The notes under the pieces were generated by a model. That model had not been told where the DNA came from, did not search any database, and worked only from the letters and a program-made list of their open reading frames with translations. A stretch of DNA of 41,356 nucleotides from Rickettsiales bacterium (GTDB lineage: Bacteria > Bacteroidota > Bacteroidia > Cytophagales > Cyclobacteriaceae): contig PBTY01000064.1 in assembly GCA_002729235.1 (NCBI GenBank), positions 1 through 41,356 on the forward strand. The letters run 5' to 3'. Below are positions 4,803 to 31,110 of the stretch, piece after piece (the first letter of the stretch is position 1; each line of letters begins with the position of its first letter). A program made the position numbers and the translations under genes.

Positions 4803-4857
4803 ATAATTGATAAACAGTATTTTAATAGCATTTACTTGTAGTTATGGTTGATTGTTG

Positions 4858-4882: not shown

Positions 4883-4892
4883 GAGATAAGCT

Positions 4893-6705: not shown

Positions 6706-6797
6706 TTAAACTTTAATGGCAGGATATTTGATCAATTGATAACAACACTGAAAATTTGCAGTTATACACTAAGTTAGAGCAAAGTAAAGGCTACTCC

Positions 6798-7004
6798 ATG
6801 ATCAAAAAACTACGACTACCACTATTCTTACTAGCAATTATCACATTACTAGCTTTCAATCACTGTACTGAGGACGACCTGTTCACAGAGTGCGCCGGTT
6901 GCCCATCAGACTCACCATGGTCGGTTCCCGGATCTACCAACTGTTACCAGTCATTTGATGATTGTGATGCCTCGGAGCGTGGGGATTGTACTATTTGTGA
7001 TTGA
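6798..7004 (+). CDS. Six-cysteine mini-lipoprotein, copy 1
   Basis: The start is placed at the ATG at 6798 because it gives a standard signal sequence (MIKKLRLPLFLLAII...). An upstream in-frame ATG at 6756 would add 14 polar residues. The signal ends at FNHC, a weak lipobox with an unusual His before the Cys. The mature ~45-residue domain has the pattern CxGCP-x-D-x-P...CY...C...E-x-GxCxIC. It shares this with the next gene in conserved order and spacing. Six cysteines in so small an exported domain suggest three disulfides or a metal site. Function is unknown; the cell-surface or periplasmic location is inferred from the lipoprotein signal. Confidence 0.6.
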   Translation: MIKKLRLPLFLLAIITLLAFNHCTEDDLFTECAGCPSDSPWSVPGSTNCYQSFDDCDASERGDCTICD

Positions 7005-7098
7005 GTGATTCTTCAAGATCATCTGGTCTCGCATCTCAGATTGGATAAAGTACAGAATTTGGATTAAATTAGTGACTCAAACATGAGTACCTAAGTTC

Positions 7099-7299
7099 AT
7101 GAAGAAATCGCTAACCTCTCTTTTATTTTTTGCTTTACTCATTTCATTCGCAGCTTTAGTTTCATGCGGAGAAGATGGCTTTGGTTCTTGCACTGGATGT
7201 CCAGATGATGCACCTTACGGTGCAAAAGGAGGCGATTGCTACGCTACCCTTAGTGCTTGTGAGAGCAATGAGTCAGGTAGCTGTGGTATCTGTCAATAA
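7099..7299 (+). CDS. Six-cysteine mini-lipoprotein, copy 2
   Basis: The 66-residue paralogue of the preceding gene has a clean lipoprotein signal (MKKSLTSLLFFALLIS... ending LVSC, the lipidated Cys at about residue 23). The mature part keeps CTGCPDDAPY, CYATLSAC and GSCGICQ, aligning cysteine for cysteine with copy 1. The two genes are 94 bp apart and look like a tandem duplication that has since diverged. The 3' end overlaps the 3' end of the opposing WD40-caspase gene by 7 bp. No function is recognised. Confidence 0.65.
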   Translation: MKKSLTSLLFFALLISFAALVSCGEDGFGSCTGCPDDAPYGAKGGDCYATLSACESNESGSCGICQ

Positions 7300-10200
7300 T
7301 CCAGTTCTTTCAAAATAGCTTCAGCCAATAGCTCTGCATTCACTGCTTCCACAGTTACTTGTTTGGAAACGGCATTGTTGCTCACAAAGGTAACCTGAGC
7401 CTTTAGCAATCCATTATCCTCTGAATATCGGCCGTTGATGATTGTGGCTCCACTAAAGTTCTTATCATCCACGAAGGCAATAGGTGCATCATCCACCTTG
7501 CTTAGTTCAATAAGTTTCTGATCCAATAACTCATTCAGGTTCAATCTGTCGAAGATCGCAGATTCATCCTGGAATCGGGTGTGTACATAAACAGGTTTTG
7601 GAGCTGCTAGGCTGATGGCATCCCTATCAGCTGGTTCTAGTCGACCAATATCAAAGCTCTTGCCATCCTCTGGAACACGTATCTCAGGCTTCTGGATACC
7701 ACCGATCTCAGCAGCAAGTTCTGGAACTTTATTCGCCGCAAACTGGAACAGATCCAAAACGTCTATGAACTCATCATCTCTCAGCGCAGCACCTTTCATA
7801 CCGAATAGTAGGGAGTAGGTCAGTAGGCCTTGTCCATAAAGCGTGGTTTCATAGCTTACGGCGTCTGCTGCTGATCCAGCTAGTACAAATAGGCCGGTTC
7901 GGTCTTTCATGCGCTCCAGAGCTCTGATTTGAGTAGAACTCATGGCGCTTCTGCTAGAAGCCAGGGAGGAGGCCAATCTACCCGAATGACATGCGTCAAT
8001 AATCAGAATTTGCTTGAGTGCTGGCACTGCTTTGATGTATTCGGTAAACTCAGCACTTGATATGGCGTCCTTTTCTCGGGCTACACTGTTGTTCATATCT
8101 CCATTAGATGCTGAACTAGTCAGATAATAAAAGTCGCTCATGTCTCCGCTATGGTTGACTCCATGGCCTGATAAGTAGACAAATAGAATGTCATTGGCTT
8201 TGGCTTGAGATTGAAACTCCCTGAAAGCCTTTTCAATGTTTGCTTTGGTTGGCCAGTTGGATTTATCCTGATCTGTCGTCAACAGTTTGATATTGGTTTT
8301 CTCGACACCCAGGTACTTGGTGGCACTCAGCTTTAAAGCATTAGCCAGGTCAGTGGCATCTTTTGCTGCGTACTTGAGATCCAGCGCATCACCTTCATAA
8401 TCAGAGGTGCCAGCAATCACCGCATAGATACTAGGAGCCTCTAGTGTTTTTTCTTCTCCAAATACATACAAGCTTTTGGCATCACTACTCAAGGTACCAT
8501 CGGTATTATACGCTTTAATGGTGATTTTATTGACACGATCATTGTACAGAAATGGATGATTCGTAATGTCGTAATCGATTTCCAAAGAGCTGGCATCAGG
8601 TGTGCCGGATGCGCTTCGTACATCGCTACTCACTTCTTTTCCATTGATCAGGATAATTACACGCCCAATACCCCCACCATTGTTACTCAAGTTGATGCCT
8701 AGTTTTCCTTCGTTTTTCAGTGGGTGCTTCAGAGACAACTCAGGATAAAGCGACTCATTTGCCAGATCATTAGATGATCTGATAGGCTCCGAATTGAGTT
8801 CCAAAAGCTTGGATAGGAGCATTGGTTCGTAGTAGTTGTCCTTGATTTGCTCCAGATTGATGATTTTTCCTTTTTTCACATAGTGGATTTGCTCCATGGC
8901 TGCTGGTGTGGCATCAAATAAGCCTTTTGGAGTGGTCACCACATACTGATCACTGTCCATTGGGATTAGGGTTCCTTTTGGGTCAGTTGCAGAGCCACTG
9001 ATTTGCCAGATTTTAACCGTTCCATCAATGGAGGCCGTCAGCATTTTGCCATTCACAAACTCAATGTCGTACGTGAACCCCGAGTGTCCTGGTAATGTCT
9101 TCAGTAGTTTTCCATTGGATGCATCAAAAATATAAATCGAGTAGTCAGCGCCGGACTCTCCACGCTTTATGGAGTTTCGTACGCCGATAAGTTCCTTTCC
9201 AGAAGGAGACCAATAGAGTTTATCAGCAGGTTTAGCCAATGTGATTTGACCATTTTTAGTTAGCTGATTTGTTTGATACATTTCTGCTGTCAGATCGTCC
9301 TTAAGTAGCACCGCTAATGTTCCATTAGATCCAATGGTAATTCCTTGCGCATTCTCTAAACTGACGTCTTTGACTTTTTGGAAGGAGATAGGGTCATATA
9401 CGGTCAGACCTTTATTCGTAAGGAAGACTAGCTGTCTGCCGTCTGGTGTAAATACATAATCCTTCCCATTTTTAACTTTAAGGTTTTGCGGTTGACTGGT
9501 GCTGAAGTTGTAGAGATCAAAGTCTTCTTCACTGCTCTTGCGAATGACGTATCGCCCGGAGATGTCAAAGGTGATGGGAGTGGTGCTGTAGTCGCCTTTT
9601 GCTTTTAGGGTGAAGAGTTCTTTTTGGTTAATGAGATTGGTTACCCGAATTTGTTCATCCAGTCCATAGCTAGCTATCACAGGATTAACCGGGTGAAAAG
9701 AAACTGCTCTGGATCCTAACCTGCTTCCTGGCAATATAATGTCAGTATCAGTTCCGGTTAAGTCTAGTACCTGGATTGAGGACTGTCCGGCAGCAATAGC
9801 CAGCTTTGTCCCGCTACGATCTACCGACAGGTCATAAATTGGAGATGCATGCCCTTTAAATGTCTTGACCCAGGCATTATTTTTGAAATCATATTCTTTT
9901 ATAATGTTCTGATAATCAGCTAGTAATAGTGTGGTATCTGAAGTGGTTACTACAACTCGTAAGCCCAAATTGAATGCTTCAGTTCCAACTGGCTCATTCC
10001 ACTCAAAAGGAAGAGCTTTCTCGTTCATTGAAAGGTCGAAAGCCTTCAGATTTTGTTTGCTATCACGTCCACATGTAAGTATGAGATTCTTAAATGGGAT
10101 GTATGCGATATCCAGTGTTCGCAATGAAAAGGCATTAATGCTTTTACTTGAATATTCACCTGAGTTGACTTGAATGAGTTCCCCTTTCTGAGTAGCAACT

Positions 10201-10802
10201 AGCCAACCCTCATTGCCTTCACTTATTGATGTAATAGCTGCATCCGAAAGGCTAAGTTGATTTGTTGATTTAAGGTCGGAGCTGAAGACTTCTAATGAAC
10301 CATCATTTCCTCCAATCACGATGTTTGGCCCTACTTTGTAAACGGCTGTAATGCTTTCTACTTTTGATTTGGACGAGTTAATGGCCTTGCCTTTAAAAAA
10401 CCATTTTAACTCATGTTCACCAACCGCTAAAACAGAGTCTGCTGATTCAGCAAACAGTCCCAAAACGGAGAACTCTGTTGAAATGGATTGTTGGACTTTT
10501 CCATCCAGGGTGTATTGCAGAATGGTTCCGTTTTTATCTGCACTGAAGAGGTAATTACTACCAAACGCGATGTTGGTGATAGGGGCACTAGCTGTGAAAT
10601 GATAGGTTTCCATCCCTGATTCATAATTCCAAATAGTAATTTGAGAGGAACCATCAATAGAAGCTAACCACTGGTGATCAGAGGATACTTTCATGTCTAA
10701 TACGCGTCGACTGTGACCGATAGGAATGATCATATCCATCTGTGCTACAGCCAAATGGGTGGCAAATAACAGCGTCACTATTGCGGTTAACTTGTTGTTC
10801 AT
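7293..10802 (-). CDS. Exported WD40-repeat caspase-family (C14) peptidase
   Basis: The 1169-residue protein begins with a signal peptide (about 1-20, ending LAVAQ). Residues ~25-610 are WD40-type repeats forming one or two propellers (for example ISIDG-like turns and ASIDGTVKIWQIS). A ~180-residue linker with a beta-sandwich look follows. Residues ~790-1010 form a caspase-like peptidase: YAVIAGTSDYEG, catalytic His880 in FVYLSGHGV, and catalytic Cys938 in ILIIDACHSGR. The C-terminal ~150 residues are unassigned. Propeller-caspase fusions are known in bacteria; the propeller usually senses partners and the caspase cleaves after basic or acidic residues. Export to the periplasm is inferred from the signal. 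It overlaps the tail of the opposing lipoprotein gene. Confidence 0.88.
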   Translation of the reverse strand: MNNKLTAIVTLLFATHLAVAQMDMIIPIGHSRRVLDMKVSSDHQWLASIDGSSQITIWNYESGMETYHFTASAPITNIAFGSNYLFSADKNGTILQYTLDGKVQQSISTEFSVLGLFAESADSVLAVGEHELKWFFKGKAINSSKSKVESITAVYKVGPNIVIGGNDGSLEVFSSDLKSTNQLSLSDAAITSISEGNEGWLVATQKGELIQVNSGEYSSKSINAFSLRTLDIAYIPFKNLILTCGRDSKQNLKAFDLSMNEKALPFEWNEPVGTEAFNLGLRVVVTTSDTTLLLADYQNIIKEYDFKNNAWVKTFKGHASPIYDLSVDRSGTKLAIAAGQSSIQVLDLTGTDTDIILPGSRLGSRAVSFHPVNPVIASYGLDEQIRVTNLINQKELFTLKAKGDYSTTPITFDISGRYVIRKSSEEDFDLYNFSTSQPQNLKVKNGKDYVFTPDGRQLVFLTNKGLTVYDPISFQKVKDVSLENAQGITIGSNGTLAVLLKDDLTAEMYQTNQLTKNGQITLAKPADKLYWSPSGKELIGVRNSIKRGESGADYSIYIFDASNGKLLKTLPGHSGFTYDIEFVNGKMLTASIDGTVKIWQISGSATDPKGTLIPMDSDQYVVTTPKGLFDATPAAMEQIHYVKKGKIINLEQIKDNYYEPMLLSKLLELNSEPIRSSNDLANESLYPELSLKHPLKNEGKLGINLSNNGGGIGRVIILINGKEVSSDVRSASGTPDASSLEIDYDITNHPFLYNDRVNKITIKAYNTDGTLSSDAKSLYVFGEEKTLEAPSIYAVIAGTSDYEGDALDLKYAAKDATDLANALKLSATKYLGVEKTNIKLLTTDQDKSNWPTKANIEKAFREFQSQAKANDILFVYLSGHGVNHSGDMSDFYYLTSSASNGDMNNSVAREKDAISSAEFTEYIKAVPALKQILIIDACHSGRLASSLASSRSAMSSTQIRALERMKDRTGLFVLAGSAADAVSYETTLYGQGLLTYSLLFGMKGAALRDDEFIDVLDLFQFAANKVPELAAEIGGIQKPEIRVPEDGKSFDIGRLEPADRDAISLAAPKPVYVHTRFQDESAIFDRLNLNELLDQKLIELSKVDDAPIAFVDDKNFSGATIINGRYSEDNGLLKAQVTFVSNNAVSKQVTVEAVNAELLAEAILKELDY

Positions 10803-16400: not shown

Positions 16401-17236
16401 AGACTATTGGGTAAAGAGTTTGGGTCTGAGGGGTTGTATGTAAAAAGTGTATGTTTTCTGTTAGAAGTATTGGACATGATCAATCCAAATCGACCACCGA
16501 TCCATAATTGATTTTGATTATCAATAAGAATACTACTTATATCTCCAATGCTTTGTAAGTCTCTTTGAAATTGTTCGGTGGGGTTGTAGGTCTCTATCTT
16601 TGAAGAACCTATACTAAGTGTGGCTATTCTACGGTTATTGGCTACCCAAGTGTTGTGTTTAGAATCTTCTGTTATTGAAATGATGCCCGAGGGAAGACCT
16701 ATTTCCGAGTTTGCTGAATTGGTGAAATGGTTATTGATTGAATCATTTGAGTCAATCTTGGTCAATGAATAATCAGTAGCTACCCATACATTTTGAGAAC
16801 GATCACGATATAGTGACCGAACAGGTCCGGTTGGAATACTAGTACTATTTATTGAGTCAGCTGTATTTAAGTGTTGAAACGAGTGCGTGTCGTACTTATA
16901 TAGGATCAGACCCGTGGTGGTGCCAATGTATAGATCACCATTCTGACCAGCAGCCAGACTTCCTATTCGATTGTCGGGGAGAGAAAGTGAATCATTGCTG
17001 TCCTTGAGAAATGTTTCTAACTCATACCCATTATATCGATTAAGTCCATCTTCTGTACCTAACCAGATGTATCCTAAATCATCTTGTTCAATTGCTGTGA
17101 CATTCGCTTGAGTTAGTCCTTTATCTGTGCCAATCCGATCAAACTTTACATCTTGAGAAGTGGCAATTAAGTGTGGGCATAATGCAATAAGCATCAGACG
17201 AACTATCGTCTTAGTCAGATCAGTCGAGGTGTACAT
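13430..17236 (-). CDS. Propeller/Y_Y_Y sensor fused to methyl-accepting chemotaxis signalling domain
   Basis: The 1268-residue protein begins with an export signal. Residues ~30-700 are regulator-propeller repeats ([36 protein letters not shown] and many more), forming two seven-bladed propellers as in hybrid two-component sensors. A Y_Y_Y-type domain (about 705-790; [36 protein letters not shown]) precedes one membrane helix at about 800-820. The cytoplasmic part has a coiled coil, a HAMP-like segment ([17 protein letters not shown]) and an MCP domain (about 970-1268). The MCP tip is [20 protein letters not shown] near residues 1097-1116. There is no histidine kinase or receiver domain. It should sense a periplasmic, probably glycan-type, ligand and signal to CheA/CheW, which are not in this window. 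Confidence 0.92.
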
Positions 17237-17342
17237 AGGTTAATGTTGCTTGGGTTACCTATGTTAATTAAACTAATATTCCCTAGATGTACTTATTAAA
17301 TGTCGATAAAACACTAATTATAGCGCACTAAAATACATATGA

Positions 17343-17361
17343 TATGGTCAAAATGACCATA
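17343..17361. promoter_or_regulatory. Perfect inverted repeat upstream of propeller-MCP gene
   Basis: TATGGTCA (17343-17350) and TGACCATA (17354-17361) are perfect 8-bp arms with a 3-base spacer, about 107 bp upstream of the start of the leftward propeller-MCP gene. The symmetry and size fit a dimeric transcription-factor site. A half-site, ATGACCAT, also lies near 11669-11676 upstream of the UbiB-like gene. Confidence 0.4.
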
Positions 17362-17431
17362 ATTATGTTTCGCAATAGCTGAAAGTGATTTTTTCTTTGT
17401 GCAAAGAATACATTGCTTAGATATAAACGAT

Positions 17432-17453
17432 AAAGGCTCCAAGTGGAGCCTTT
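17432..17453 (-). terminator. Terminator of the ABC-F gene
   Basis: AAAGGCTCC (17432-17440) and GGAGCCTTT (17445-17453) form a perfect 9-bp stem with a 4-base loop, directly after the stop codon of the leftward ABC-F gene. The stem itself supplies the short T-run on the minus strand. Confidence 0.7.
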
Positions 17454-17456
17454 AAT

Positions 17457-19111
<1,655 letters not shown>

Positions 19112-19195
19112 GGATACCTTAATATGATCTCAGTTTTTTACGGAATGTTGATTTATCAAATGTGTAGTACAAACTCGGATAATCTCCCAAATAGG

Positions 19196-19374
19196 GGCAT
19201 ACCTGTGCAGGACGAGCGATGAAGTTTGCAGAAGACGCAAAAGCTGGTCGACTTATACTACCCCACCATCATCCAGATCACGATGATGTGTTCTTGCAAA
19301 ACTTAGAAAATCACTGTCAGCTTGAATTTAACAAGACCGTATTAGCTCGGGAAGGTATGATTATTGAACTTTAA
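19196..19374 (+). pseudogene. Remnant C-terminus of an MBL-fold metallohydrolase
   Basis: Reading in frame from 19195, after a TAG at 19192, the DNA encodes GHTCAGRAMKFAEDAKAGRL. It continues with ILPHHHPDHDDVFL and ends TVLAREGMIIEL before a TAA at 19372. This matches, by memory, the tail of metallo-beta-lactamase-fold phosphodiesterases: a GH(S/T) metal ligand, then a helix, then a (F/P)HHDPxHDD segment, ending EGMxI. The first ~200 residues, including HxHxDH, are absent. Further upstream the frame has stops (a G-stop-SPK-stop pattern). A 51-residue ORF from the ATG at 19219 remains open, so it may still be predicted as a gene. Confidence 0.5.
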
Positions 19375-19376
19375 TC

Positions 19377-20729
19377 TCACTTATTTGGAGGTAAGGGTCT
19401 TGGAATCAACAACAATTCAGTTTGTCTTCCATCAATGTATTTGACATCATTTCCATCAAAGAATGCATCCTCTTCCAGCATGATTCGAATTTCCTTATCC
19501 CATTCCTCAATGAAAATAGCATTGTTGAGTTCAATGGAATAAGCTGTATTTGGAAAGAGCGGATAATCACCAGCTCCAGGGACACCACCTTGTTGGTCCC
19601 ACAGACCAATGGTAGGTCCGGCTGCATGACCATGATATCCAATAGGATGGGTGTAAATGGTCGGCTTGAGATCGGCTTCTTTCGCATCGGATAATGATTT
19701 GGCTAAGACTTCATTTCCAGTCATACCGGTTTTGAAGTTGGCAGTGAAGACATCTTGCAGTTGATTGCCGGTAGTAAATGCGTCATTGAGATAGTCTGGA
19801 GCCTTCATTTCCCCAGGTTTCAGGACATAAGCATGTTGTTGTGTGTCTGTATTGAGTCGGAGGTAGGTGATGCCAAAATCAACATGTAGTAGATCTCCGG
19901 GTATGATCACCTGGTCTTCCGGTCTGTCTGAGAATGCACGAAGATGCTCAAAGCTTTCCGGATCCTTGCGCTGAATGGCTACACTAGGGTGAAACCAGGC
20001 TGTGAACCCTAATTCTCGGATGCGATCTCTGTACCACCACACTGCATCATCTGTTGTAGTAACTCCAGGCTGTATTACCTTCTCAGAAAAACCCTCGGCG
20101 ATGATCTGATGAGCCATTCGGACAATATTTTGATAGACCATCATTTCGGAAGGCGTTCTGGTTTCCAGCCAGCCGATTGCCAGGTTTTCAGCACTAACCA
20201 CACGTTTCTGGAAGGGAGAGGGTAATGCTTCCATCAATTGATCATAATGTGTGCTAGAGATGCCATCCGCCAGGGCAAAGGTTTTGGATTTGTTGATGCC
20301 AATCTTCTTAGGGTTCTTTTGCTGAATCAATTCTGCTAATGCTTTCCATTGATCAGGCTGTGTTTCTTTATCCCAAACTTTTTTGAACGTTTTACCGACT
20401 CCATATCTTGCCATAGCCATGGTTTCTAACGGTTGATTGCTCCCAGGGTCGTAAATGACCAGAATGGTTGTCCGACGAGCACTTTGCCAGGTAGCGGGGA
20501 GCATGGTTTTGATCACCGGATCTTCGTTGTATTCTCGCGCGATGATTACCCACATGTCAATACCGGTCCGTTTCATCAATTCTGGTAATACGGTTTGTAC
20601 CCGTTCTTCCATCCATTGATCGATTACCTCAGCTCGTTCTTGCATATTCAGCGTTTTCGGAAAATAGGGGTTTTGCGCATGGAGACTGGCAATCAGTAAG
20701 AGTAAGAAGATGGTAAGTGTATGTTTCAT
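19377..20729 (-). CDS. Exported M24-family metallopeptidase (Xaa-Pro aminopeptidase-like)
   Basis: The start is set at the ATG at 20729, which opens a signal peptide (MKHTLTIFLLLLIASLHAQ). An upstream in-frame ATG at 20777 would put 16 polar residues in front of it. The ~450-residue protein has a creatinase-type N-terminal half (about 25-215). Its M24 'pita-bread' half has metal-ligand motifs: LLHVDFGITY (first Asp), HPIGYHGHAAGP (His) and SIELNNAIF, with a further acidic ligand in IMLEEDAFF. Such enzymes release N-terminal residues preceding proline or related dipeptides. The signal peptide points to the periplasm or outer membrane. It is divergent from the DnaJ-like gene. Confidence 0.88.
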   Translation of the reverse strand: MKHTLTIFLLLLIASLHAQNPYFPKTLNMQERAEVIDQWMEERVQTVLPELMKRTGIDMWVIIAREYNEDPVIKTMLPATWQSARRTTILVIYDPGSNQPLETMAMARYGVGKTFKKVWDKETQPDQWKALAELIQQKNPKKIGINKSKTFALADGISSTHYDQLMEALPSPFQKRVVSAENLAIGWLETRTPSEMMVYQNIVRMAHQIIAEGFSEKVIQPGVTTTDDAVWWYRDRIRELGFTAWFHPSVAIQRKDPESFEHLRAFSDRPEDQVIIPGDLLHVDFGITYLRLNTDTQQHAYVLKPGEMKAPDYLNDAFTTGNQLQDVFTANFKTGMTGNEVLAKSLSDAKEADLKPTIYTHPIGYHGHAAGPTIGLWDQQGGVPGAGDYPLFPNTAYSIELNNAIFIEEWDKEIRIMLEEDAFFDGNDVKYIDGRQTELLLIPRPLPPNK

Positions 20730-20800
20730 AATCGGAAAATAATTGACTCTAATATAGGTCATAGCCAACCATTGCATGAGGCAATTTTGATGGATGGTTA

Positions 20801-20808
20801 TATCTTTG
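20801..20808 (+). promoter_or_regulatory. -7 box TATCTTTG of the DnaJ-like gene
   Basis: TATCTTTG fits the Bacteroidota TAnnTTTG box and lies 20 bases before the TTG start of the DnaJ-like gene. A TTG at the ideal upstream distance is not present. Confidence 0.45.
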
Positions 20809-20827
20809 GCTTAAACCTGTAGCCATT

Positions 20828-21628
20828 TTGACCTACTACGATATACTAGAAGTCCATCAAGGAGCCACTTATGCTGAGATCAAGAGCAGTTATAGACGAC
20901 TGGTGAAGATCTACCACCCGGATGTGAACCCATCCGCACTTGCCGCTGAGAAAATCACGCAGATAACTAACGCCTATGAGGTATTGAGTGATCCTAACGC
21001 AAGAGCAAATTATGACTGGCAGATATCTCTCGGTGCTAGCGACACTTCATTCACTTATCAGGCACCCCAACCAGAACCGGTAGTTGACGAGCGGGAGCAA
21101 AAGAGGAGGGAGTATGTGAAGTGGCGAAGAAAACGTGATGAGGAGCTCTGGCAGAAGCGCTTTCATATGAAAGTGATGTTCTACAAGTATCAGCGATACT
21201 TTGCTTATTTGTTCTTGCTGGTAGGAGTGATTTTTACTTTTGATCACTATACTCATGGAGATAAACAACCGATCAAAATCCAACGAGTGATTCTGCTGAA
21301 GTGGGGAAATACCGGAGTAGTGGTGAATGGCATCCGATATGAGACCTCTGGCGCTATGTATCGCGAAAAGGCTGTTCAACCCGATTTGTCAGGTTATTTT
21401 TATCATTCAGGTGTTTTTGGGAAGAATTCACAAATTGGGTTTGCCAATGGGGGTAAGTACACGATTTATGGTTCATTGTACCAGTTTGGTAACCTGTTTG
21501 CCTACTTGATACTGATTATTTCAGCAGCACTTATTGCCGTAAAGAAATACAACGACTTCATGCTGACCATTGGTTTGATCCCGATCTTCTTAACCTGGTT
21601 TTTGATGGTGTTTGTGTTATTTACTTAG
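20828..21628 (+). CDS. Membrane-anchored DnaJ-domain protein
   Basis: The 266-residue protein starts at a TTG. Residues 1-65 are a J-domain (YYDILEVHQGATYAEIKSSY) with the HPD motif at 30-32 that stimulates DnaK ATPase. A charged linker (about 85-115) follows. Three or so membrane segments come next: about 122-140 (YFAYLFLLVGVIFTFDHY), about 217-235 (LFAYLILIISAALIAVKKY) and about 243-265. About 75 residues between the first two may form a small exposed domain. It lacks the Gly/Phe and zinc regions of true DnaJ, so it is a specialised membrane co-chaperone rather than the housekeeping one. Confidence 0.82.
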   Translation: MTYYDILEVHQGATYAEIKSSYRRLVKIYHPDVNPSALAAEKITQITNAYEVLSDPNARANYDWQISLGASDTSFTYQAPQPEPVVDEREQKRREYVKWRRKRDEELWQKRFHMKVMFYKYQRYFAYLFLLVGVIFTFDHYTHGDKQPIKIQRVILLKWGNTGVVVNGIRYETSGAMYREKAVQPDLSGYFYHSGVFGKNSQIGFANGGKYTIYGSLYQFGNLFAYLILIISAALIAVKKYNDFMLTIGLIPIFLTWFLMVFVLFT

Positions 21629-21648
21629 TGGGGCAGCTTGTTCCATTT

Positions 21649-22605
21649 TTATCCACGGAGTACCAGATAAGTGAGGTATGATATGTAGGTTAGTATAAAG
21701 ATGGTTCCCATTACCCTTCCTATGCTCGCTTTTCTACCAACGACAATTGCTAGAATTAAAAGGGTACTGGAAGCAATAACCATAAGAATGTCCGAGTTGG
21801 AGACAATGTCAAATGGAAGAGGTCTGATGATGGAACTTAATCCTAAAATCCATAAGATATTGAATATGTTGGATCCCACCACATTACCCACGGCCATATC
21901 AGATTGACCTTTACGAGCTGCAACGGCAGAGGTCACAAGTTCCGGCAGTGATGTACCGATAGCTACTACCGTAAGTCCAATAAATGTCTCAGAAAGACCA
22001 AATAATAGGGCAATTTCAAATGCTCCATCGACTACCCATTTTCCACCCAGGAACAAACCAAATGATCCACCTGCGATAAACAGCATGGATTTCAGCTGGG
22101 ACATCATATTTGTTTGATCTGACTCGTCTATTTCATCTTTGGATTGAGCTACCACGTAGATGTAGGTCATAAATAGCCCAAAAAAGAAAAGAAGTATAAT
22201 GCCATCGTACCGGCTAAGGGTTAATCCTTTGACATCTACGAACAAATCGGCATTGGCCAGGAAACCAAGTAAAACGGTCGCGAAAAGAGATATAGGCACT
22301 TCTGTGAAATAGATACTTTTGTGTATCGGTAGCGGTTTGATGATGGCTGCCACACCTAAAATAAGCAGTACGTTGGCAATATTACTTCCAAGAACGTTGC
22401 CAATTGCCAGTTCAGAGCTTCCATCAAAGCTTGCCAGGAGATTGACAATGAGCTCTGGCATGCTCGTACCGAAAGACACAATGGTTAAACCGATGACGAT
22501 TTCCGGAATATTGTTTCGTTTGGCTATTGATGAGGCTCCCTCTACTAAGAAATCTGCACCTTTGATTAAAAGAGCAAATCCAATTACAAACAGGATGTAA
22601 ACCAC
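21649..22605 (-). CDS. Calcium/sodium antiporter, CaCA family (YrbG-like)
   Basis: The 318-residue integral membrane protein has about ten helices and the two inverted alpha-repeats of the CaCA family. Repeat 1 has [18 protein letters not shown] and [16 protein letters not shown]. Repeat 2 has [18 protein letters not shown] and [16 protein letters not shown]. The glutamates of the GTS(M/L)PE motifs coordinate the transported cation. It exchanges Na+ (or H+) for Ca2+ across the inner membrane. Its length is normal for YrbG-type proteins. It stands alone, convergent with the DnaJ-like gene. Confidence 0.93.
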
Positions 22606-22697
22606 TTCGTACCCATTTTAATGTTTCTTGAATTATTTGGATTAAATCTAGATAGATTCCAAATATTATAATCTTAGAAGTGAAATTATCTTGTTTT

Positions 22698-22825
22698 TTA
22701 GAAATTCAGAAATAGTTGATCTCTTAACTCTTTGACTCCCTCCTCGATTTCTTTTTTTACTTCTTTGGTAGCGTGGTTTTTGATGGTGTTTTTGATTTTT
22801 GCCTGACTGGTAATCAGTGATTAGT
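22698..22825 (-). pseudogene. Possible C-terminal gene remnant
   Basis: On the minus strand an open frame without a start codon ends QAKIKNTIKNHATKEVKK, then EIEEGVKELRDQLFLNF, then TAA. The composition is that of a real amphipathic helix, and the DNA just upstream dissolves into the degenerate repeat tract. It may be a decayed gene end, but it is short and I recognise no family. Confidence 0.25.
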
Positions 22826-22957
22826 GAATTCGTAATCAGTATGTCAGTGATCAGTAATTAATCGGTTAGTCGGTCATCAGTGTGTCAATTTATCAGTAAA
22901 CAGTGGACTGTCAACTGAAAGCTGTCTAGTGACAACTAATCCCTATTATCCAACACC
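22808..22957. repeat. Degenerate short-repeat tract, block 1
   Basis: The gap 22606-22968 has no intact gene. This part is built of loosely repeated words such as GTAATCAGTGATTAGTG, TCAGTGATCAGTAA, TCAGTAAACAGT and ACTGAAAGCTGTC. The same words recur at 23813-23850 and in 34735-35165. The units are too irregular for a tandem-repeat period and show no coding frame. Confidence 0.6.
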
Positions 22958-22968
22958 ATGGTACCTTT

Positions 22969-23757
22969 TCAAAGCTTAAAGGTTACTGGAAAGATCATTT
23001 TGCTTCGAACTGCGATACCATTTTGTGTTCCAGGTTTCCATTTGGGCATTGTTTCCAACACTCTGATCACTTCAGCGTCAAAGTTTTTCGCTTGTTCCAC
23101 AGATTTGACCACATGAATGTTGGTAATACTTCCATCTTTTTCAATCACAAACTCTACATAGACCTTTCCAGTGATGTGCTTTTTTAGTTCCCACTCAGGG
23201 TAGGTGAGTTTTTTTTCAATGTATTTAAATAGCTCTTCATACCCGCCATTGAATTCTGGCATTGACTCTGGAAAGTTGAAGATATAGTTGGGCTCATCAT
23301 TCAAGTCAACTTCCTCCACCAAGACGATATCTCCCATGAGTATTTCCTCAACTGGAATATCTATGGAGGGAGGGATTTCTTCAGAGTCGATAGTTTCTGC
23401 CAGTTCAGTAGCTGGTTTCTTTATGTTCGGAAATTCATCTGTGCAGCCAGATAATATCAATGAACTTACCACCAATGCAAAGAAGAGCATATTCTGGTTT
23501 TTGGATGAATAGGATGTTTTTCTTACGACCAAAAGTAATTCTTGAGAGGTATGAGCTAAATCTGATTTACGGATTCTACCACATACCCGATCGTTGCGAT
23601 GATCCAGTAGGTATTGAATGATGTTTGTTCGATCCATAGTCGTAAAGTCAATAACAGCTTTATCACATTGTTCGCAATGTCTGGAAATACAGCCTATTTT
23701 CATGTCATTCCAGGAAGCGCTGCATGGTGCTTTAATGGATTTTTGTAGCAGTGTCAT
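22969..23757 (-). CDS. TonB C-terminal domain protein with N-terminal CxxC module
   Basis: From the ATG at 23757 (another lies at 23781) the product is ~262 residues. Residues ~10-60 form a Bacteroidota module with a conserved Cys, then ISRHCEQCDKAVIDFTTM and a later VCGR, probably a small metal-binding domain. A membrane segment (about 88-105, MLFFALVVSSLILSG) is followed by an acidic, Pro-rich spacer. The C-terminal ~90 residues are a TonB-type domain (MPEFNGGYEELFKYIEKKL, GKVYVEFVIEKDGSI, MPKWKPGTQNG, FPVTFKL). Such proteins transmit proton-motive energy or take part in signalling through outer-membrane receptors. No ExbB/ExbD is nearby, so it is a stand-alone paralogue. Confidence 0.82.
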   Translation of the reverse strand: MTLLQKSIKAPCSASWNDMKIGCISRHCEQCDKAVIDFTTMDRTNIIQYLLDHRNDRVCGRIRKSDLAHTSQELLLVVRKTSYSSKNQNMLFFALVVSSLILSGCTDEFPNIKKPATELAETIDSEEIPPSIDIPVEEILMGDIVLVEEVDLNDEPNYIFNFPESMPEFNGGYEELFKYIEKKLTYPEWELKKHITGKVYVEFVIEKDGSITNIHVVKSVEQAKNFDAEVIRVLETMPKWKPGTQNGIAVRSKMIFPVTFKL

Positions 23758-23812
23758 AGATATTGGATTTATTAGGTACAATCCAGTTTGACGAAATAGT
23801 CACATTTAATTT

Positions 23813-23850
23813 TAGTGAATTAGTGAGTCAGTAATCAGTGATTGGGAGGT
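23813..23850. repeat. Degenerate short-repeat tract, block 2a
   Basis: GTGAATTAGTGAGTCAGTAATCAGTGATTGGG-type words, the same family as the tract at 22808-22957. It lies upstream of the TonB-like gene, in the gap 23782-24145, which contains no gene. Confidence 0.5.
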
Positions 23851-23874
23851 AGGGTACTTGTTTGTTATGAAATG

Positions 23875-23944
23875 CGTCATTCCCCGAATGTGTGACGAAC
23901 ATGATCAATTAAGTTTTGCTTAAGTCATTCTAGGGGAATCTGAC
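23875..23944. repeat. Palindromic intergenic repeat, second locus
   Basis: CGTCATTCCCCGAATGTG followed by TGACG forms an imperfect hairpin with CGTCA/TGACG ends. About 27 bases later GTCATTCTAGGGGAATCTGAC is a second near-palindrome. Both cores, TCATTCCCCGAAT and ATTCTAGGGGAAT, match the cluster at 1-175, so the two loci hold members of one dispersed family. Confidence 0.6.
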
Positions 23945-24085
23945 CTTTCTAACACCCGACATTCAATACCCAACTACGGTCTCTGGTTTATCGAATGAAA
24001 GCTATCAGGCCATTAACACCCAACCTAAAGCCCAAAACTCAAGAACTTTGTCCAACATCAAACCTCCCGCAATTTCCCCAAAATC
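23944..24085. repeat. Degenerate short-repeat tract, block 2b
   Basis: Words such as CACCCGACATTCAATACCCAAC, TACGGTCTCTGGTTTATCGA, ATGAAAGCTATC and AACACCCAACC resemble those in 34735-34925. No gene is seen; the next start is at 24146. Confidence 0.45.
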
Positions 24086-24145
24086 TGGTATTGCTAAAAA
24101 CGGTACAATCACATAATTTGAATTCTTTTAACTAATAACGCCATT

Positions 24146-24847
24146 ATGAGTAAATCAAATTATGATGCGCTGCTGGCTGAGATAGAAGCTATCCCAGAAG
24201 CAGAAGTAAAACAACCCAACATGCCTATTGATGCCTTTTTGCAGGAAGCTGCAGATCTGGAAGTCTGGTGCAAAGAGGACATCCCGAAGCTCACCGCTGT
24301 AGGCATTCCCAAAGCTGTTTTTGATTCACTTCCTGTCCGAACAGGCGCATTGCGCTATGCACAGAGTGTGTGGAGCAAAGACCGCTACTCGCAGGAGGAA
24401 GCACGGCAGGAGTGGGATCAGAAAAGTCCTATTGCCATTGGACTGAAGGATGAGCTGGAGCATGCGTATCGCTTTGCCTTCCGTAAGCGACCGGACTTGC
24501 TCAGCAAAGTACAGGCCATAGAAGAGGGCACAGGCAATGCAGACCTGGTACAGGACCTCAGTGATTTGGCTGTGCTGGGCAAGGCCAATCTACCGCTAGT
24601 GAAAGTGGTAGGGATCAATGCCGCAAAGCTCGCTGAAGCAGAAACCATGAGTACCGAAATGAGCGGACTCCTAGCTGCAATGAATGGTGAACGTGCCGAG
24701 AGTGGTGAGGGCAAGATCATTCGTGACAAGGCCTACACGCTACTGAAAAATGCCGTGGATGAAATCCGTGAAGCTGGCAAGTTTGTCTTCTGGAAGGACT
24801 CCAATAAGCTGAAGGGGTACAAGAGTGCCTATTTTAGGAACCGCTAA
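24146..24847 (+). CDS. Unknown helical protein preceding the 21-bp array
   Basis: I do not recognise a named family. The 233-residue product is soluble, predicted almost all helical and rich in Ala, Glu and Lys. Distinct stretches are ADLEVWCKEDIPKLTAVGIP, VRTGALRYAQSVWSKDRYS, HAYRFAFRKRPDLLSKVQAI, NADLVQDLSDLAVLGKANLP and a C-terminal FVFWKDSNKLKGYKSAYFRN. The segments at ~34-64 and ~133-160 look alike ('DL..L..LGK.NLP.V..VGI' against 'DLEVW.KEDIPKL.AVGIP'), suggesting an internal duplication. The G+C content is visibly higher than in the following Kiwa-like genes. It lies at the left edge of the accessory block. Its stop is followed within 5 bases by the periodic array at 24852-25033. Confidence 0.7.
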   Translation: MSKSNYDALLAEIEAIPEAEVKQPNMPIDAFLQEAADLEVWCKEDIPKLTAVGIPKAVFDSLPVRTGALRYAQSVWSKDRYSQEEARQEWDQKSPIAIGLKDELEHAYRFAFRKRPDLLSKVQAIEEGTGNADLVQDLSDLAVLGKANLPLVKVVGINAAKLAEAETMSTEMSGLLAAMNGERAESGEGKIIRDKAYTLLKNAVDEIREAGKFVFWKDSNKLKGYKSAYFRNR

Positions 24848-24851
24848 GTAT

Positions 24852-25033
24852 TCCTGCGGCGCAGGATGGAATGAAAATCCCGCAGGACAATAGAAAGTTT
24901 CGCAGGACGCCTTGAAGGTCTTGCAGGACAGGGTCAACCTCTCGCAGGATTACCCATAAGTCTCGCAGGAAGGGGTTAAACTCCTGCAGGGTTGGCAAAA
25001 GCCTTGCAGTAAGCTTTTAAATTCTCGCAGGAC
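24852..25033 (+). repeat. Nine-copy GCAGGA array with ~21-bp period
   Basis: The core GCAGG(A/G), with GCAGT in one copy, starts at 24861, 24882, 24902, 24923, 24944, 24965, 24986, 25006 and 25027. Spacings are 21, 20, 21, 21, 21, 21, 20 and 21 bases. The core is usually preceded by CTC or TTC, followed by AC or AT, and an AA doublet sits about 13-15 bases later; the other positions vary. The left end is a perfect palindrome, TCCTGCG-G-CGCAGGA (24852-24866), giving one inverted copy. The two 20-bp units break any reading frame, so it is not coding. The spacing equals two DNA helical turns. Confidence 0.85.
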
Positions 25034-25039
25034 TATTAT

Positions 25040-25075
25040 AAAACCCGTCTATCGTGTAGGCGGGTTTTGTTTTGT
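25040..25075 (+). terminator. Strong rho-independent terminator after the array
   Basis: AAAACCCGTCTA (25040-25051) pairs with TAGGCGGGTTTT (25057-25068), twelve pairs with one G-T wobble and a 5-base loop, followed by GTTTTGTT. It lies after the last array unit, so the array is probably transcribed as the 3' end of the upstream mRNA or as its own RNA. Confidence 0.85.
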
Positions 25076-25207: not shown

Positions 25208-25819
25208 ATGAGTAATAAATCAAATGCAGGACTAACCTATCTGGCAAGATTTGTCCTTTTTGTCTCATCTTACCTGCCGCTTTTCATTTTACTGATTAGT
25301 CAGCAATTATATCAAAACAAAGAATTTCTTAATTATGGAGGCATTTCGTTGGAGACTCTTATCTGCTGGTTATCCAACTTCGGCCTTAGTTGTATACTTC
25401 TGCTGGTATCGGTTATTGGATATGTAGGTTACCGATATACCTTCCAAAACCTTAAAAGTAACGCACCGAATGGAGATCCTGCTACAATCATTGACATCAA
25501 GAATAAGAACAGCGAAGCAATAGGATATATTGGTACATACATTTTGCCTTTTTTATTTCAGGACCTCAATAATCCGGTTCAGTCATTTTCCATTTTGTTC
25601 TTGCTCTTTATCATTTACCGGATCTATATCAATTCATCATTGATGTTAATCAATCCGGTATTGTCAATGAAGTATACTCTTTATGAAGTGACTTATGCTG
25701 AAAATGAAAAAAACAATAAAACCGCTCTAATTCTTAGTGAAAATGATGATATGCAAGAAGAGGATCAAATTCAAATTACACAATTAGGCCATAAATTATT
25801 TTTCGCCATAGACCTGTAA
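25208..25819 (+). CDS. kwaA: KwaA-like four-helix membrane protein (Kiwa-type defence)
   Basis: The 203-residue protein has four hydrophobic segments: about 12-30 (FVLFVSSYLPLFILLIS), 50-70 (LICWLSNFGLSCILLLVSVIGY), 104-115 (AIGYIGTYILPFLF) and 123-140 (FSILFLLFIIYRIYINS). A cytoplasmic-looking C-terminal tail (about 150-203) is rich in Asp/Glu and beta-prone. The size, topology and position six bases before a DUF4868 gene match Kiwa, in which membrane KwaA senses phage attack and KwaB (DUF4868) acts with it. The call rests mainly on the partner gene; sequence similarity to KwaA could not be tested. It is visibly A+T-rich compared with the genes on both sides. Confidence 0.6.
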   Translation: MSNKSNAGLTYLARFVLFVSSYLPLFILLISQQLYQNKEFLNYGGISLETLICWLSNFGLSCILLLVSVIGYVGYRYTFQNLKSNAPNGDPATIIDIKNKNSEAIGYIGTYILPFLFQDLNNPVQSFSILFLLFIIYRIYINSSLMLINPVLSMKYTLYEVTYAENEKNNKTALILSENDDMQEEDQIQITQLGHKLFFAIDL

Positions 25820-25825: not shown

Positions 25826-26845
25826 ATGATTTTAAAAACCATTTCTGAACAAATAGAAGATTCTTCAATAATCCACTTGTTTTTTATTACACGGAAATTA
25901 AAGGACAACACAAAAAAGACTGATAGAGTATTAGATAAGTTTGATTTTACAGCTTATCAAGTGGATGTGAATGATGAAATTAGAAAATACTTAAGAGAGC
26001 TAACTGAAAAACATCTTTCTAAGATGGTGAAGTCTGACTATGATATGGAAGACTATGATGTATTAACTGATGATTCGCATAAGGTGCTGACCTATCAAAT
26101 GGAAAATAAGAAAATGTCATTTGCCAACGTGGTTACTGAGCAGTTATTAAATAAGCCTTCCAAAATTAAGGATGTAGTAGATCTTGTAGCTAAAGGTGAG
26201 GAAATATGGGCCTATAGCGTAGGGTTTTACTCTAAAAAAGAGACCAATCAGTGGATATATACCTTTAGAAAAGTACTGTCAGGCAAAGTTGCTGTTGATG
26301 CTAAATCGAATCCTGAGACCTCAAAAATGGATAAAACCATTAGAACAGTCTTCAATACACAAACTCAAAAACTAGAATTGCTAAAAGGTCAAACAATAAA
26401 TCTTGATACAACGGTTGACTGTATTTACTTCAATGATACTTTTTATATCAAAAACAAACGACAGTTTGAGCAGATCATTGGTTTAGAGGAAGAATTCAAG
26501 GAAGAAGCAAGACAAGTGGTGACTAAACTGCAAGAGCTTGATGTTATTGAAGGGCTTGACTTAATTAGTGAACAAATAGAAGATCATCCACCGATCCATA
26601 AAAAGCTAGTAAGGATATCGAAAATCGGAAATTACCGAGACATCAATAGAGCGACACTAAATAAAATGAAGGCCGTTTCAAAAGCCTATGGAAGTAACCT
26701 TAAAGTCAAGAATAACAAGTTGGTAATTGAAGATAAGAATGATATTGAATTGGTACTTAAGATGCTCTCTGATTATTATAAAAGAGGGGAAGTCTCTGGT
26801 AAACCTTATGGCACTTATGCTGGAAAGCAAATTGAACAATCTTAA
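25826..26845 (+). CDS. kwaB: KwaB-like DUF4868 protein (Kiwa-type defence)
   Basis: The 339-residue soluble protein shows what I take to be the DUF4868 pattern. Its central part reads EEIWAYSVGFYSKKETNQW, then a variable stretch, then TTVDCIYFNDTFYIKNKRQF and EQIIGLEEEFKEEARQVV (about residues 190-240). A helical C-terminal region with LVIEDKNDIELVLKMLSDYY and a conserved-looking GKPYGTYAGK end follows. DUF4868 is the KwaB domain of Kiwa; published work describes it as the effector/DNA-binding partner of membrane KwaA. It is co-transcribed with the upstream membrane gene and ends in a perfect terminator hairpin, making a self-contained two-gene unit. Confidence 0.65.
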   Translation: MILKTISEQIEDSSIIHLFFITRKLKDNTKKTDRVLDKFDFTAYQVDVNDEIRKYLRELTEKHLSKMVKSDYDMEDYDVLTDDSHKVLTYQMENKKMSFANVVTEQLLNKPSKIKDVVDLVAKGEEIWAYSVGFYSKKETNQWIYTFRKVLSGKVAVDAKSNPETSKMDKTIRTVFNTQTQKLELLKGQTINLDTTVDCIYFNDTFYIKNKRQFEQIIGLEEEFKEEARQVVTKLQELDVIEGLDLISEQIEDHPPIHKKLVRISKIGNYRDINRATLNKMKAVSKAYGSNLKVKNNKLVIEDKNDIELVLKMLSDYYKRGEVSGKPYGTYAGKQIEQS

Positions 26846-28982: not shown

Positions 28983-30250
28983 GTAGTCTGGATGAATTAT
29001 TAAGGGGTATTGAATTTGAGTGGTTGAGTCTTGGGGAGATTTCAACATTTAGAAGAGGTTCATTCCCTCAACCCTACGGAAATAGTGAGTGGTATGATGG
29101 AGAAGGCGCAATGCCCTTCGTCCAAGTTGTTGATGTTGGTACTGATTTGCAACTTGTTCAGGACACAAAAAAGAAGATTTCAAAATTAGCTCAACCAAAG
29201 AGTGTATTTGTACCAAAAGGCACTGTGATTGTAACTCTACAGGGTAGTATTGGAAGAGTTGCGATAACACAATATGATTCCTACGTTGACAGAACTTTAG
29301 CAATATTTGAGCGGTTCGAAATTGAATTGAACAAAAAGTATTTTGCTTATCAACTTGAAGAAATATTCAAAAAAGAAAAGGAAACAGCACGTGGAAATAT
29401 AATTAAGACCATAACAAAAGATGATTTCAAGAGTTTTCCGGTTCCAATACCTTGTCCAGATAATCCTAAAAAATCACTGGAGGTCCAAAAAGAAATTGTT
29501 CGTATTCTAGATTCTTTAACTGACCATATTAAAGAGCTTTCAACAAAGCTTTCAACAGAGCTTTCAGCACGTAAACAGCAGTACAGCTATTACAGGGATC
29601 AGTTATTTAGGTTTAATGAAGATGATATTGACTTAAAGAATTTAGGTGAAGTTGGGGAATTAGTTAGGGGGAATGGATTACCCAAAACAGACTTTACCAA
29701 TACAGGTGTTCCTGCAATCCATTATGGTCAAATATATACTTACTACGGTACTCAGACTTCAAAAACAATTTCTTTTGTTTCAGCTGAAACGGCTAAGAAA
29801 TTACGCAAGGTAGATTTGGGTGATGTCGTTATAACAAATACAAGTGAAAACATAGAGGATGTGGGGAAAGCTGTTGTTTATCTTGGTGAAGAACAAGCAG
29901 TGACTGGCGGACACGCCACAATATTTAAACCTTCAAAGAAAATTACTGGTAAGTACTTCGCTTATTTTAGCCAAACGACTCTTTTTTCAAATCAAAAAAG
30001 AAAGCTTGCAAAGGGTACAAAGGTCATGGATGTTTCCACATCAGACATGGCTAAGATAGTAATACCCATTCCTTCCAAGGAGGAACAGGAACGCATCGTC
30101 ACAGTCCTCGACAAATTCGAAACGATCGCCACTTCAATTAGTGTAGAATTATCGAAAGAAATAGATCTGAGGCAACAGCAGTATAAATACTACAGGGATT
30201 TGTTGTTGACATTTCCTGAGAAAGAATCAAATGAAAAATCATTAGATTGA
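28979..30250 (+). CDS. hsdS: Type I restriction-modification specificity subunit HsdS
   Basis: The 423-residue protein has two target-recognition domains. TRD1 covers about residues 10-160 ([19 protein letters not shown]). TRD2 covers about 212-385 ([19 protein letters not shown]). Each is followed by the conserved long helix: [20 protein letters not shown] ... [13 protein letters not shown] and [20 protein letters not shown] ... [13 protein letters not shown]. Each TRD reads one half of a split DNA site, and the helices set the distance. The first helix carries a 3 x 12-bp DNA repeat (residues 186-197: [12 protein letters not shown]). It is coupled to hsdM. hsdR is separated from it by a transposase gene. 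Confidence 0.95.
29534..29569 (+). repeat. 3 x 12-bp in-frame repeat in the hsdS spacer helix
   Basis: GAGCTTTCAACA (29534-29545), AAGCTTTCAACA (29546-29557) and GAGCTTTCAGCA (29558-29569) are adjacent 12-bp units differing at one or two bases. They encode ELST, KLST and ELSA between the two recognition domains. In EcoR124-type enzymes a 4-residue repeat at this place varies in copy number and changes the spacer length of the DNA target. Confidence 0.85.
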
Positions 30251-30252
30251 AC

Positions 30253-30274
30253 GGGGCAACCACCATTGGTTGCC
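30253..30274. repeat. REP-like palindrome before the transposase gene
   Basis: GGCAACCA (30255-30262) and TGGTTGCC (30267-30274) are perfect 8-bp arms with a 4-base loop, preceded by GG. It begins three bases after the hsdS stop and lies just upstream of the RAYT start, the usual place for a REP element. Confidence 0.6.
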
Positions 30275-30291
30275 AAACCAACCAATTGAAT

Positions 30292-31110
30292 ATGACATAT
30301 AATCCGAAAATTCATGATCGTAAATCCATTCGGTTAAAGGGATATGATTATTCGCGAGAAGGATTGTATTTTCTGACCATATGTACACAAAACCGCGCCT
30401 GTTTATTTGGTGAAATTGTGGGTGGTAAAATGATATTGAATGATGCCGGCAACATGGTGGTCAATGAATGGGCCCAATTACCCCATAGGTTCACCAATAT
30501 CCGATTGCATGAATACGTGACAATGCCCAATCATTTCCACGCCATATTAGAAATCGTAGGGGCGACCCTTGTGGTCGCCCCAAATGATAAAACGGTCGCC
30601 CCAAATGATAAAACGGTCGCCCCGGATAACGAAACGGTCGCCCCGGATAACAAAATGGTCGCCCCCAATGACCAAACAATCACCCAAAATGATGACCATA
30701 ATCAAAAGAATGAGGTTCCCCAAAATGAAGAGGTCGCCCGAAAGAACCGTGACCCCAAAACGAATAATGGGCAACCACAAGGGATTGCCCCAACGATTGC
30801 CCCAACGATTGCCCCAACGATTGCCCCAACGGGGAAAACCGTTGGTGACATGATGGCGGCATTCAAATCCATCACCACCGTAAAATACATTCATGGCGTT
30901 AAATCATCCCATTGGCCACCATTTGATGGGAAATTGTGGCAAAGAAATTATTGGGAACATATCATTCGCAACGAAAATGAATACCAGCGCATCAGTCAGT
31001 ATATCATTGACAACCCGAAAAAATGGAAAAATGATCAATTAAATCATGGAAATGGCAACAAGGTATTGGAACCAGAAGTGCCATACAACCATGAACCCTG
31101 GATGATATGA
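30292..31110 (+). CDS. REP-associated tyrosine transposase (RAYT, IS200/Y1 type) with repeat insertion
   Basis: The start is set at the ATG at 30292, giving MTYNPKIHDRKSIRLKGYDY. An in-frame ATG at 30247 would overlap hsdS and translate the REP palindrome. The 272-residue protein has the RAYT N-terminus (YFLTICTQNRACLFG), the HUH motif in MPNHFHAIL (His81, His83) and, after a long insert, the C-terminal part with WQRNYWEHIIRNENEYQRIS and candidate nucleophile Tyr237. Residues ~90-183 are a low-complexity insert of VAPNDKT heptads, a charged stretch and four IAPT units. Without it the length is about 177, normal for RAYTs. It cuts and joins single-stranded REP DNA. It splits the type I RM operon. 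Confidence 0.85.
   Translation: MTYNPKIHDRKSIRLKGYDYSREGLYFLTICTQNRACLFGEIVGGKMILNDAGNMVVNEWAQLPHRFTNIRLHEYVTMPNHFHAILEIVGATLVVAPNDKTVAPNDKTVAPDNETVAPDNKMVAPNDQTITQNDDHNQKNEVPQNEEVARKNRDPKTNNGQPQGIAPTIAPTIAPTIAPTGKTVGDMMAAFKSITTVKYIHGVKSSHWPPFDGKLWQRNYWEHIIRNENEYQRISQYIIDNPKKWKNDQLNHGNGNKVLEPEVPYNHEPWMI
30559..30581. repeat. REP-like palindrome inside the transposase CDS
   Basis: GGGGCGACC (30559-30567) and GGTCGCCCC (30573-30581) are perfect 9-bp arms with a 5-base loop, preceded by GTA. They lie eight codons after the HUH motif. The sequence resembles stand-alone REP elements more than transposase coding DNA. Confidence 0.75.
30573..30677 (+). repeat. Tandem 21-bp in-frame repeat in the RAYT gene
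   Basis: Units start at 30573, 30594, 30615, 30636 and 30657, exactly 21 bp apart, each opening GGTCGCCCC, the right arm of the REP palindrome. The rest is AAATGATAAAAC or GGATAACGAAAC-like. They encode V-A-P-(N/D)-(D/N)-K-T heptads. Because 21 is a multiple of 3, neighbouring frames stay open too. Confidence 0.9.
30769..30831 (+). repeat. REP variant plus 4 x 12-bp repeat in the RAYT gene
   Basis: GGGCAACC (30769-30776), then ACAAG and GGATTGCCCC form a second REP-like hairpin with one bulge. ATTGCCCCAACG is then repeated exactly four times (30784, 30796, 30808, 30820), encoding IAPT x4. Again the unit reuses a REP arm (ATTGCCCC). Confidence 0.85.

Follow-up and report, generated by a model that had tools for sequence, protein, structure and literature searches.

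A group of Bacteroidota carries an undescribed helical protein followed by a row of short repeats, and the core of the repeats tends to follow the last residues of the protein. The unit was noticed in a window of 41,356 nucleotides (contig PBTY01000064.1, positions 1 to 41,356), which is the whole stretch of DNA analysed. The gene occupies positions 24146 to 24847 of the forward strand and encodes a 233-residue all-helical protein, as judged from the open reading frame, its homologues, and an AlphaFold2 model. The array lies on the same strand between positions 24861 and 25031 and has nine forward cores, eight GCAGG and one GCAGT, at a spacing of 20 to 21 bp. The cores start at positions 24861, 24882, 24902, 24923, 24944, 24965, 24986, 25006 (the GCAGT copy), and 25027, with core-to-core distances of 21, 20, 21, 21, 21, 21, 20, and 21 bp. 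The eight in-register GCAGG copies compare with a maximum of three in 60 first-order shuffles of 700 nucleotides, and TRF at a score of 30 did not report the window array. The gene end of the array holds a dyad with the center CCTGCggcGCAGG (24853 to 24865), of which CCTGC at 24853 to 24857 is the inverted copy. An intrinsic terminator-like stem with a T tract closes the array on the forward strand (25038 to 25070); its 12-nucleotide arms are 92% complementary, and shuffles yield 1.5 such sites on average. The initial annotation had described the gene, the inverted copy, the nine cores, and the terminator, and direct reading confirmed all of them.

The array is genuine, and it accompanies the gene. 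The initial annotation had suggested that the two may be one unit and had proposed a search behind the stops of homologues. This search covered 54 distinct homologues that extend at least to profile column 225, with 400 or more nucleotides available 3’ of the stop and identical entries removed. Loci L003 and L168 (short sequence) and the front halves of L170 and L033 (no tail) were left out; the 54 include the C-terminal parts L033, L159, L170, and L020, and three homologues with unusual C-terminal ends (L158, L171, and L186). Exact 5-mers in a 19–22-bp register were counted within 600 nucleotides after the stop. At least five were present in 41 of the 54 homologues, and at least four in 48. 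Among 94 tail-less paralogues, five of which are fragments under 120 amino acids, none reached five and one reached four, and the same was true of 51 upstream stretches of 400 nucleotides. The unit recurs in homologues, as proposed. Of the 13 homologues below five, L143 has a clear array starting beyond 600 nucleotides, L185 has a weak array, L158 has a degenerate tail (KWKIYARE) and no array, and in the remainder three or four exact 5-mers were counted. Autoregulation through cores upstream of the gene was considered and rejected, the raw counts being 6 seen and 2.3 expected at 22 loci.

The two-turn spacing noted in the window is general across the family. Core-to-core distances in 47 arrays, with 19 to 22 bp allowed, are 21 (233 steps), 20 (85), 22 (10), and 19 (2), for a mean of 20.76 and 318 of 330 steps at 20 to 21 bp; since periodicity guided the choice of the core word, the informative part is the concentration within 19–22. 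When distances up to 70 nucleotides were taken without constraint, 227 of 292 were 20 or 21. In each repeat unit, a locus-specific 6-bp core is joined, one turn away (+12 to +15), by an A-rich spot. The AA doublet at a fixed offset, reported earlier for the window, reappears in the pooled profile of 43 arrays: at +13 and +14, counted from the start of the core, the A frequency is about 0.5, a value that is partly circular because each array had been oriented to match that profile. Automated detection found a dyad in 18 of the 43 arrays, with 1.6 expected from shuffles. A near-constant AT-rich spacer of the AATATTATTTGG type is seen in the downstream arrays of L009, L011, L012, L013, L017, L142, and L166, alongside quite different cores and genomes.

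The AlphaFold2 model of the window protein has a mean pLDDT of 90.7 and a pTM of 0.66 and consists of helices throughout. No Pfam, PHROGs, or PADLOC family matched the protein at E ≤ 0.001, and neither a PDB sequence search nor Foldseek gave an assignment; the Foldseek search with the predicted model returned no solved fold at E ≤ 0.001 (best E 0.038). The last six residues, 228 to 233 (AYFRNR, 24827 to 24844, forward strand), form a variable tail that is MYHSK in a second haplotype (L002), whose body is the same save for two nearby differences, and this tail is proposed as the specificity element. Among 48 members, residues 1–205 are acidic (mean net charge −11.3) and the remainder is basic (mean +4.9). 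PQLLE-type ends have a mean charge of +0.7 (n = 52).

These ends belong to the PQLLE family (NCBIfam NF052641), which, judged by sequence, is a distant relative of the helical body below the curated cut-off. The window protein scores 17.7 bits, and the cut-off is 80. The profile matches 19 of 22 alignment members at E ≤ 0.1 (best 1.6e-8), and a body relative at the 2.9e-46 level (G002) scores 34.1 bits. Of 195 relatives, 28 have a match to the profile, 17 of these above the cut-off; 14 control genomes have none. PQLLE proteins have many paralogues per genome and typically end in PQLLEALGI, whereas the window protein ends in KLKGYKSAYFRNR and has no PQLLE-type end; the 94 paralogues that lacked an array of at least five 5-mers are of this kind. 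Up to 14 copies per genome are listed among the PQLLE-type paralogues L065 to L127 (G094, G101, G016, G029, G075, and G164). The word PQLLE is absent from the open-access literature searched.

Distribution was determined from single-sequence and profile searches. The protein is present in 11 of 195 relatives, in 6 of 390 genomes of the order, and in 1 of 395 genomes of the phylum, which is the window’s own. Within the family it is present in 29 of 295 genomes, and the enlarged sample (n = 400) likewise gave 29 carriers among 390 genomes, none of them new. Two of the 29 (G094 and G873) show PQLLE-type ends and reach only 28–31 bits. The carriers known by name are Reichenbachiella agariperforans, Marinoscillum furvescens, a Prolixibacteraceae MAG, and Labilibacter sediminis; five matches each came from the Prolixibacteraceae MAG and L. 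sediminis. No relative was found in viral contigs, plasmids, or phages, the latter two queried with one sequence. In one genome (L032/L033, G450:C7), approximately 200 nucleotides of unrelated sequence interrupt a gene copy near codon 139, and the tail and array of this copy look intact.

Tails and cores can be sorted into classes. YF(R/K)(N/M)R tails occur with CGCAGGA (L025, L026, L148, and L149), YH(S/N/K) tails with CCGGGA (L002, L139, L163, L028, and L060), YL tails with TCAGGA (L027, L034, L150, L165, L169, and L170), HW tails with CATGG (L030, L055, and L142), and YRK tails with TGGAA (L151 and L182). Bodies less than 65% identical were compared in 672 pairs from 38 arrays, after removal of five near-duplicates. 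The residue after the tyrosine is common to 9 of the 10 and 15 of the 20 most core-similar pairs, against a base rate of 13.7%, and the 92 pairs that share it have a mean core similarity of 0.369 versus 0.248 (p = 0.0005). The tail-nearest distant partner has a mean rank of 0.64 (p = 0.0035). A partial Mantel test over 43 arrays gave r = 0.226 for tail and core given body (p = 0.0005). These permutations ignore the tree, and the tail window was chosen and the tails listed by hand. The corresponding value for body and core given tail is stronger (partial r = 0.483), and the claim that the tail, rather than the body, is what the core follows was abandoned. Pairs with like bodies and different tails are L025/L002 (body 1.00, core 0.36) and L008/L059, which lie in one genome (body 0.98, core 0.19).

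Exceptions to the classes exist. YF tails occur with other cores in L059, L152, L162, L010, and L159; YHKK tails (L009, L061, and L029) occur with CTACAGGG; and L008, with YNRR, has the CCGGGA of the YH class. There is thus a tail–core relation but no one-residue code after the tyrosine. In all 17 pairs of same-class arrays in different bodies, the spacers are no more alike than order-shuffled spacers (lowest p 0.07), and the tails of 15 of the 17 pairs have at least one synonymous difference. A single, recently transferred piece of DNA therefore does not by itself account for the tail–core match. The suggestion that the protein may recognize its own 3’ array is made more likely by the tail–core association.

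The window’s own assembly (G000) contains a second, nearly identical contig (C93) for the same 24.8-kb stretch, window positions 1 to 24826. There is no mismatch between the two over the 7.9 kb from 16791 to 24708. Positions 1 to 8791, the other stretch compared, also match, with 18 mismatches. On the forward strand, the stretch from 24709 to 24826 is diverged in the alignment, with ten mismatches at 24709 to 24820, and the alignment stops at 24826. Past this point C93 has a different tail (MYHSK), a different array (CCGGGA), and different downstream DNA. The pair looks as if the 3’ end of the gene had recently undergone homologous recombination with a diverged donor. A crossover exactly at codon 227 was considered and given up, as the mismatches start at 24709, approximately codon 188. 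The two contigs may represent two strains, a duplication, or a switching population. A second case is the L008/L059 pair, whose bodies are 98% identical and whose tails and cores differ. The haplotypes also bear on CTCGCAGGAGG, to which the initial annotation had drawn attention inside the gene near position 24389. It lies in coding sequence (YSQEEA) and is read here as a probable chance match, because haplotype L002 retains the same body and yet has a CCGGGA array; the earlier suggestion finds no support.

We consider it reasonably probable that the gene makes a sequence-specific DNA-binding protein that coats the array, with the tail reading the core and the tail and array forming one cassette. 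The predicted long acidic helical bundle would carry the basic C-terminal tail, and the covariation suggests that the last five to eight tail residues read the 6-bp core as DNA. Repeats of 20–21 bp place successive cores on one DNA face, and bound copies would spread along this face from the dyad at the gene end of the array. Homologous recombination in the 3’ end of the gene would exchange C-terminus, tail, array, and downstream DNA together; the exchange is visible as sequence in the one haplotype pair, and this mechanism is the one it suggests. Two known systems work in a like manner. In ParR-parC partition, a DNA-binding protein is encoded beside a row of its own sites. Here, the neighbors in the window and 20 proteins picked at other loci showed no ParM/ParA partner, no known DNA-binding fold was recognized, and the unit is chromosomal, has several copies per genome, and has no match in the plasmid collection. 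In type I restriction HsdS proteins and pilin silent cassettes, a conserved body has a variable specificity end that is exchanged by recombination; in the present unit, by contrast, the presumed targets themselves move along with that end.

Arrays also occur without the gene. The GCAGG pattern was found in 7 of 10 genomes and the CCGGGA pattern in 6 of 12, and the control gave no hit in any of these genomes. Nine gene-less places were read (L217 to L220 and L225 to L229). At L226 (G003), about the last 20 codons and the array of L008 are present at 90.9% over 241 bp. At L220 (G938), the array copy starts 3 nucleotides after the parent’s stop and is 93.4% identical over 316 bp, and a near-copy in G450 is 81.5% identical over 238 bp. 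Tail-plus-array fragments without a body are L020, L034, and L226, with a degenerate one in L219, where the tail RIFRMR precedes GCAGGA. Three composite arrays (L217, L219, and L220) join two different cores, one behind the other; each core seems to have a start of its own, as though the arrays had been added in succession. Further pattern hits are scattered singles and hits of period 22 in G900 and G998 C8. The initial annotation had held that the same array at many unrelated sites lacking the gene would count against its reading, and the gene-less arrays in several genomes go part of the way to this. The link between gene and array is not exclusive, which weakens the idea of a strict unit. 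The gene-less arrays may be arrays acting in trans, relics, or donor cassettes.

The gene-less near-copies and the composite arrays, together with IS200-like genes that adjoin some loci, agree with a rather unlikely alternative in which the array is a satellite- or BIME-like 3’-end repeat that disperses in linkage with the tail and is not read by the protein. Against this stand the absence of arrays after the tail-less paralogues of the same superfamily and the pairing of the same tail with the same core across bodies despite diverged spacers and tail codons. In REP/BIME systems with RAYT, an IS200-like transposase gene has its own repeats, copies of which are dispersed in intergenic places. 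RAYT is a Y1_Tnp (HuH) protein, whereas the present protein is predicted to be an all-helical bundle and no Y1_Tnp match was found for it or for 22 members. REPs are single tagged palindromes, and the present arrays are directional with a 21-bp unit.

The initial annotation had left open whether the array acts as DNA or RNA. It is probably read as DNA, which is favored by the two-turn spacing, the mixed orientation, the gene-less arrays, and the terminator-like stem that precedes the array in some members. The contrary reading is judged unlikely; it takes the array for a transcribed 3’ end whose repeated RNA motifs or hairpins are bound by the protein or by some other factor, for autoregulation or mRNA stability. 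The window array does sit between the stop codon and the terminator, and its fold has a z of −2.47 relative to shuffles. A z below −2 was found in 22 of 43 arrays, a number that could come from inverted cores alone. One-arm arrays have a median z of −1.36 (14 of 33 below −2), two-arm arrays have a median of −3.99 (8 of 10 below −2), and some arrays are positive (L149, L151, and L055). The spacing of 20–21 bp fits two turns of B-DNA, against 22 for the A-form. Two arms of opposite orientation are present in 12 of 55 arrays; units opposed within one array cannot show one single-stranded motif, and such arrays fit DNA better than single-stranded RNA. A terminator-like stem stands between gene and array in 6 of 51 cases by a strict rule, with L180 doubtful due to a misplaced first unit. 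No Rfam family reached its gathering score, the matches being two below threshold.

It is improbable that the 3’ end and array are a hot spot for island exchange in which the protein assists or restrains the exchange. The haplotype switch with different DNA downstream, the body-less fragments, and integrase-like neighbors at L014 and L164 would agree with this. Ten mismatches in 118 nucleotides, however, look like homologous recombination and not a fixed crossover site, and no recombinase belongs to the unit. A guide array in the manner of CRISPR or TIGR, with variable spacers as targeting guides, is rejected as scarcely credible: the short cores, variable spacers of approximately 11–15 nucleotides, and end terminator superficially resemble TIGR as described in PMC12045711, but the protein has no Nop or nuclease domain, each unit has a single core and not two alternating repeats, cores vary freely between loci, and spacers within one array are more alike than letter-shuffled spacers in 43 of 43 arrays (0.389 versus 0.281).

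In TIGR-Tas, a protein gene stands beside a short-repeat array with short variable stretches and an end terminator, and the arrays are processed into 36-nucleotide guide RNAs (PMC12045711). The system, in the same account, needs a Nop-domain protein and two alternating 8–12-nucleotide repeats with spacers of approximately 9 nucleotides, neither of which is found here. No Nop family appeared among Pfam matches of the window protein at E ≤ 1 or of 22 members at E ≤ 0.1. CRISPR-Cas has repeats of 25–36 nucleotides with spacers of similar size, whereas the whole unit here is 20–21 bp with a 6-bp core. TIGR-Tas, CRISPR, and RAYT each fail a tested defining feature. The earlier impression that no described system fits agrees with this, in that none of the systems tested fits, and no description of such a unit was found in the open-access literature searched.

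The array had been placed at the edge of a defence island, and the genes downstream bear this out. The first gene after the array is KwaA of the Kiwa system (25208 to 25819, forward strand; PADLOC E = 1.4e-70), and it is followed on the same strand by KwaB (25826 to 26845; PADLOC E = 6.5e-108, Pfam PF16162 E = 2.2e-22). Downstream of these is a type I restriction system with methyltransferase, specificity, and restriction endonuclease proteins. The gene at 30247 to 31110 has a weak IS200-like match below the cut-off (Y1_Tnp, E = 0.004). This IS200-like gene lies between hsdS and hsdR and contains a coding minisatellite with a 21-bp period at 30573 to 30692, the core of which is unrelated to the array. 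Elsewhere in the window, a 1169-residue protein (7293 to 10802) has WD40 propeller repeats and a caspase domain (Peptidase_C14, E = 3.2e-19).

At other loci, 20 neighbor proteins were picked by eye out of 130 neighbor ORFs and then scanned. They include part of a Cas9 (L030), SIR2_2 (L059), Mrr_cat (L008), a DNA methylase (L027), integrase domains (L014 and L164), GIY-YIG (L021), Y1_Tnp (L166), PLDc_2 (L146), and a nucleotidyltransferase (L028), and 8 of the 20 have no family at E ≤ 0.001. That defence genes are typical neighbors is an impression from these 20 eye-picked proteins. The window neighbors are KwaA and a TonB_C protein, and there is no NTPase motor among the 20 picked elsewhere. 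Weak Y1_Tnp-like genes lie directly beyond the array at L022 and L002, and at L022 many repeats of 33–47 nucleotides surround this gene.

As to the role of the unit, the likeliest is a nucleoprotein border or insulator that would separate the gene from changeable downstream DNA, which is often related to defence; this is a guess, and a doubtful one. It is also conceivable, though less likely than not, that the DNA specificity of the helical-bundle protein is set by a C-terminal peptide of five to eight residues that can be exchanged and that moves by recombination together with its own sites, so that each locus re-marks itself. Loci at the border of changeable, defence-rich DNA would then be re-marked with new protein–site pairs. 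If the association alone holds, the tail, core, and array still define a testable family without a described function. If the exchangeable tail is true, the family would offer many parallel natural experiments in which a very short peptide tail chooses a 6-bp DNA core, a recognition-code data set with the answer written beside each gene, and the unit would represent a type of locus, new to biology, that marks itself where defence islands begin or end.
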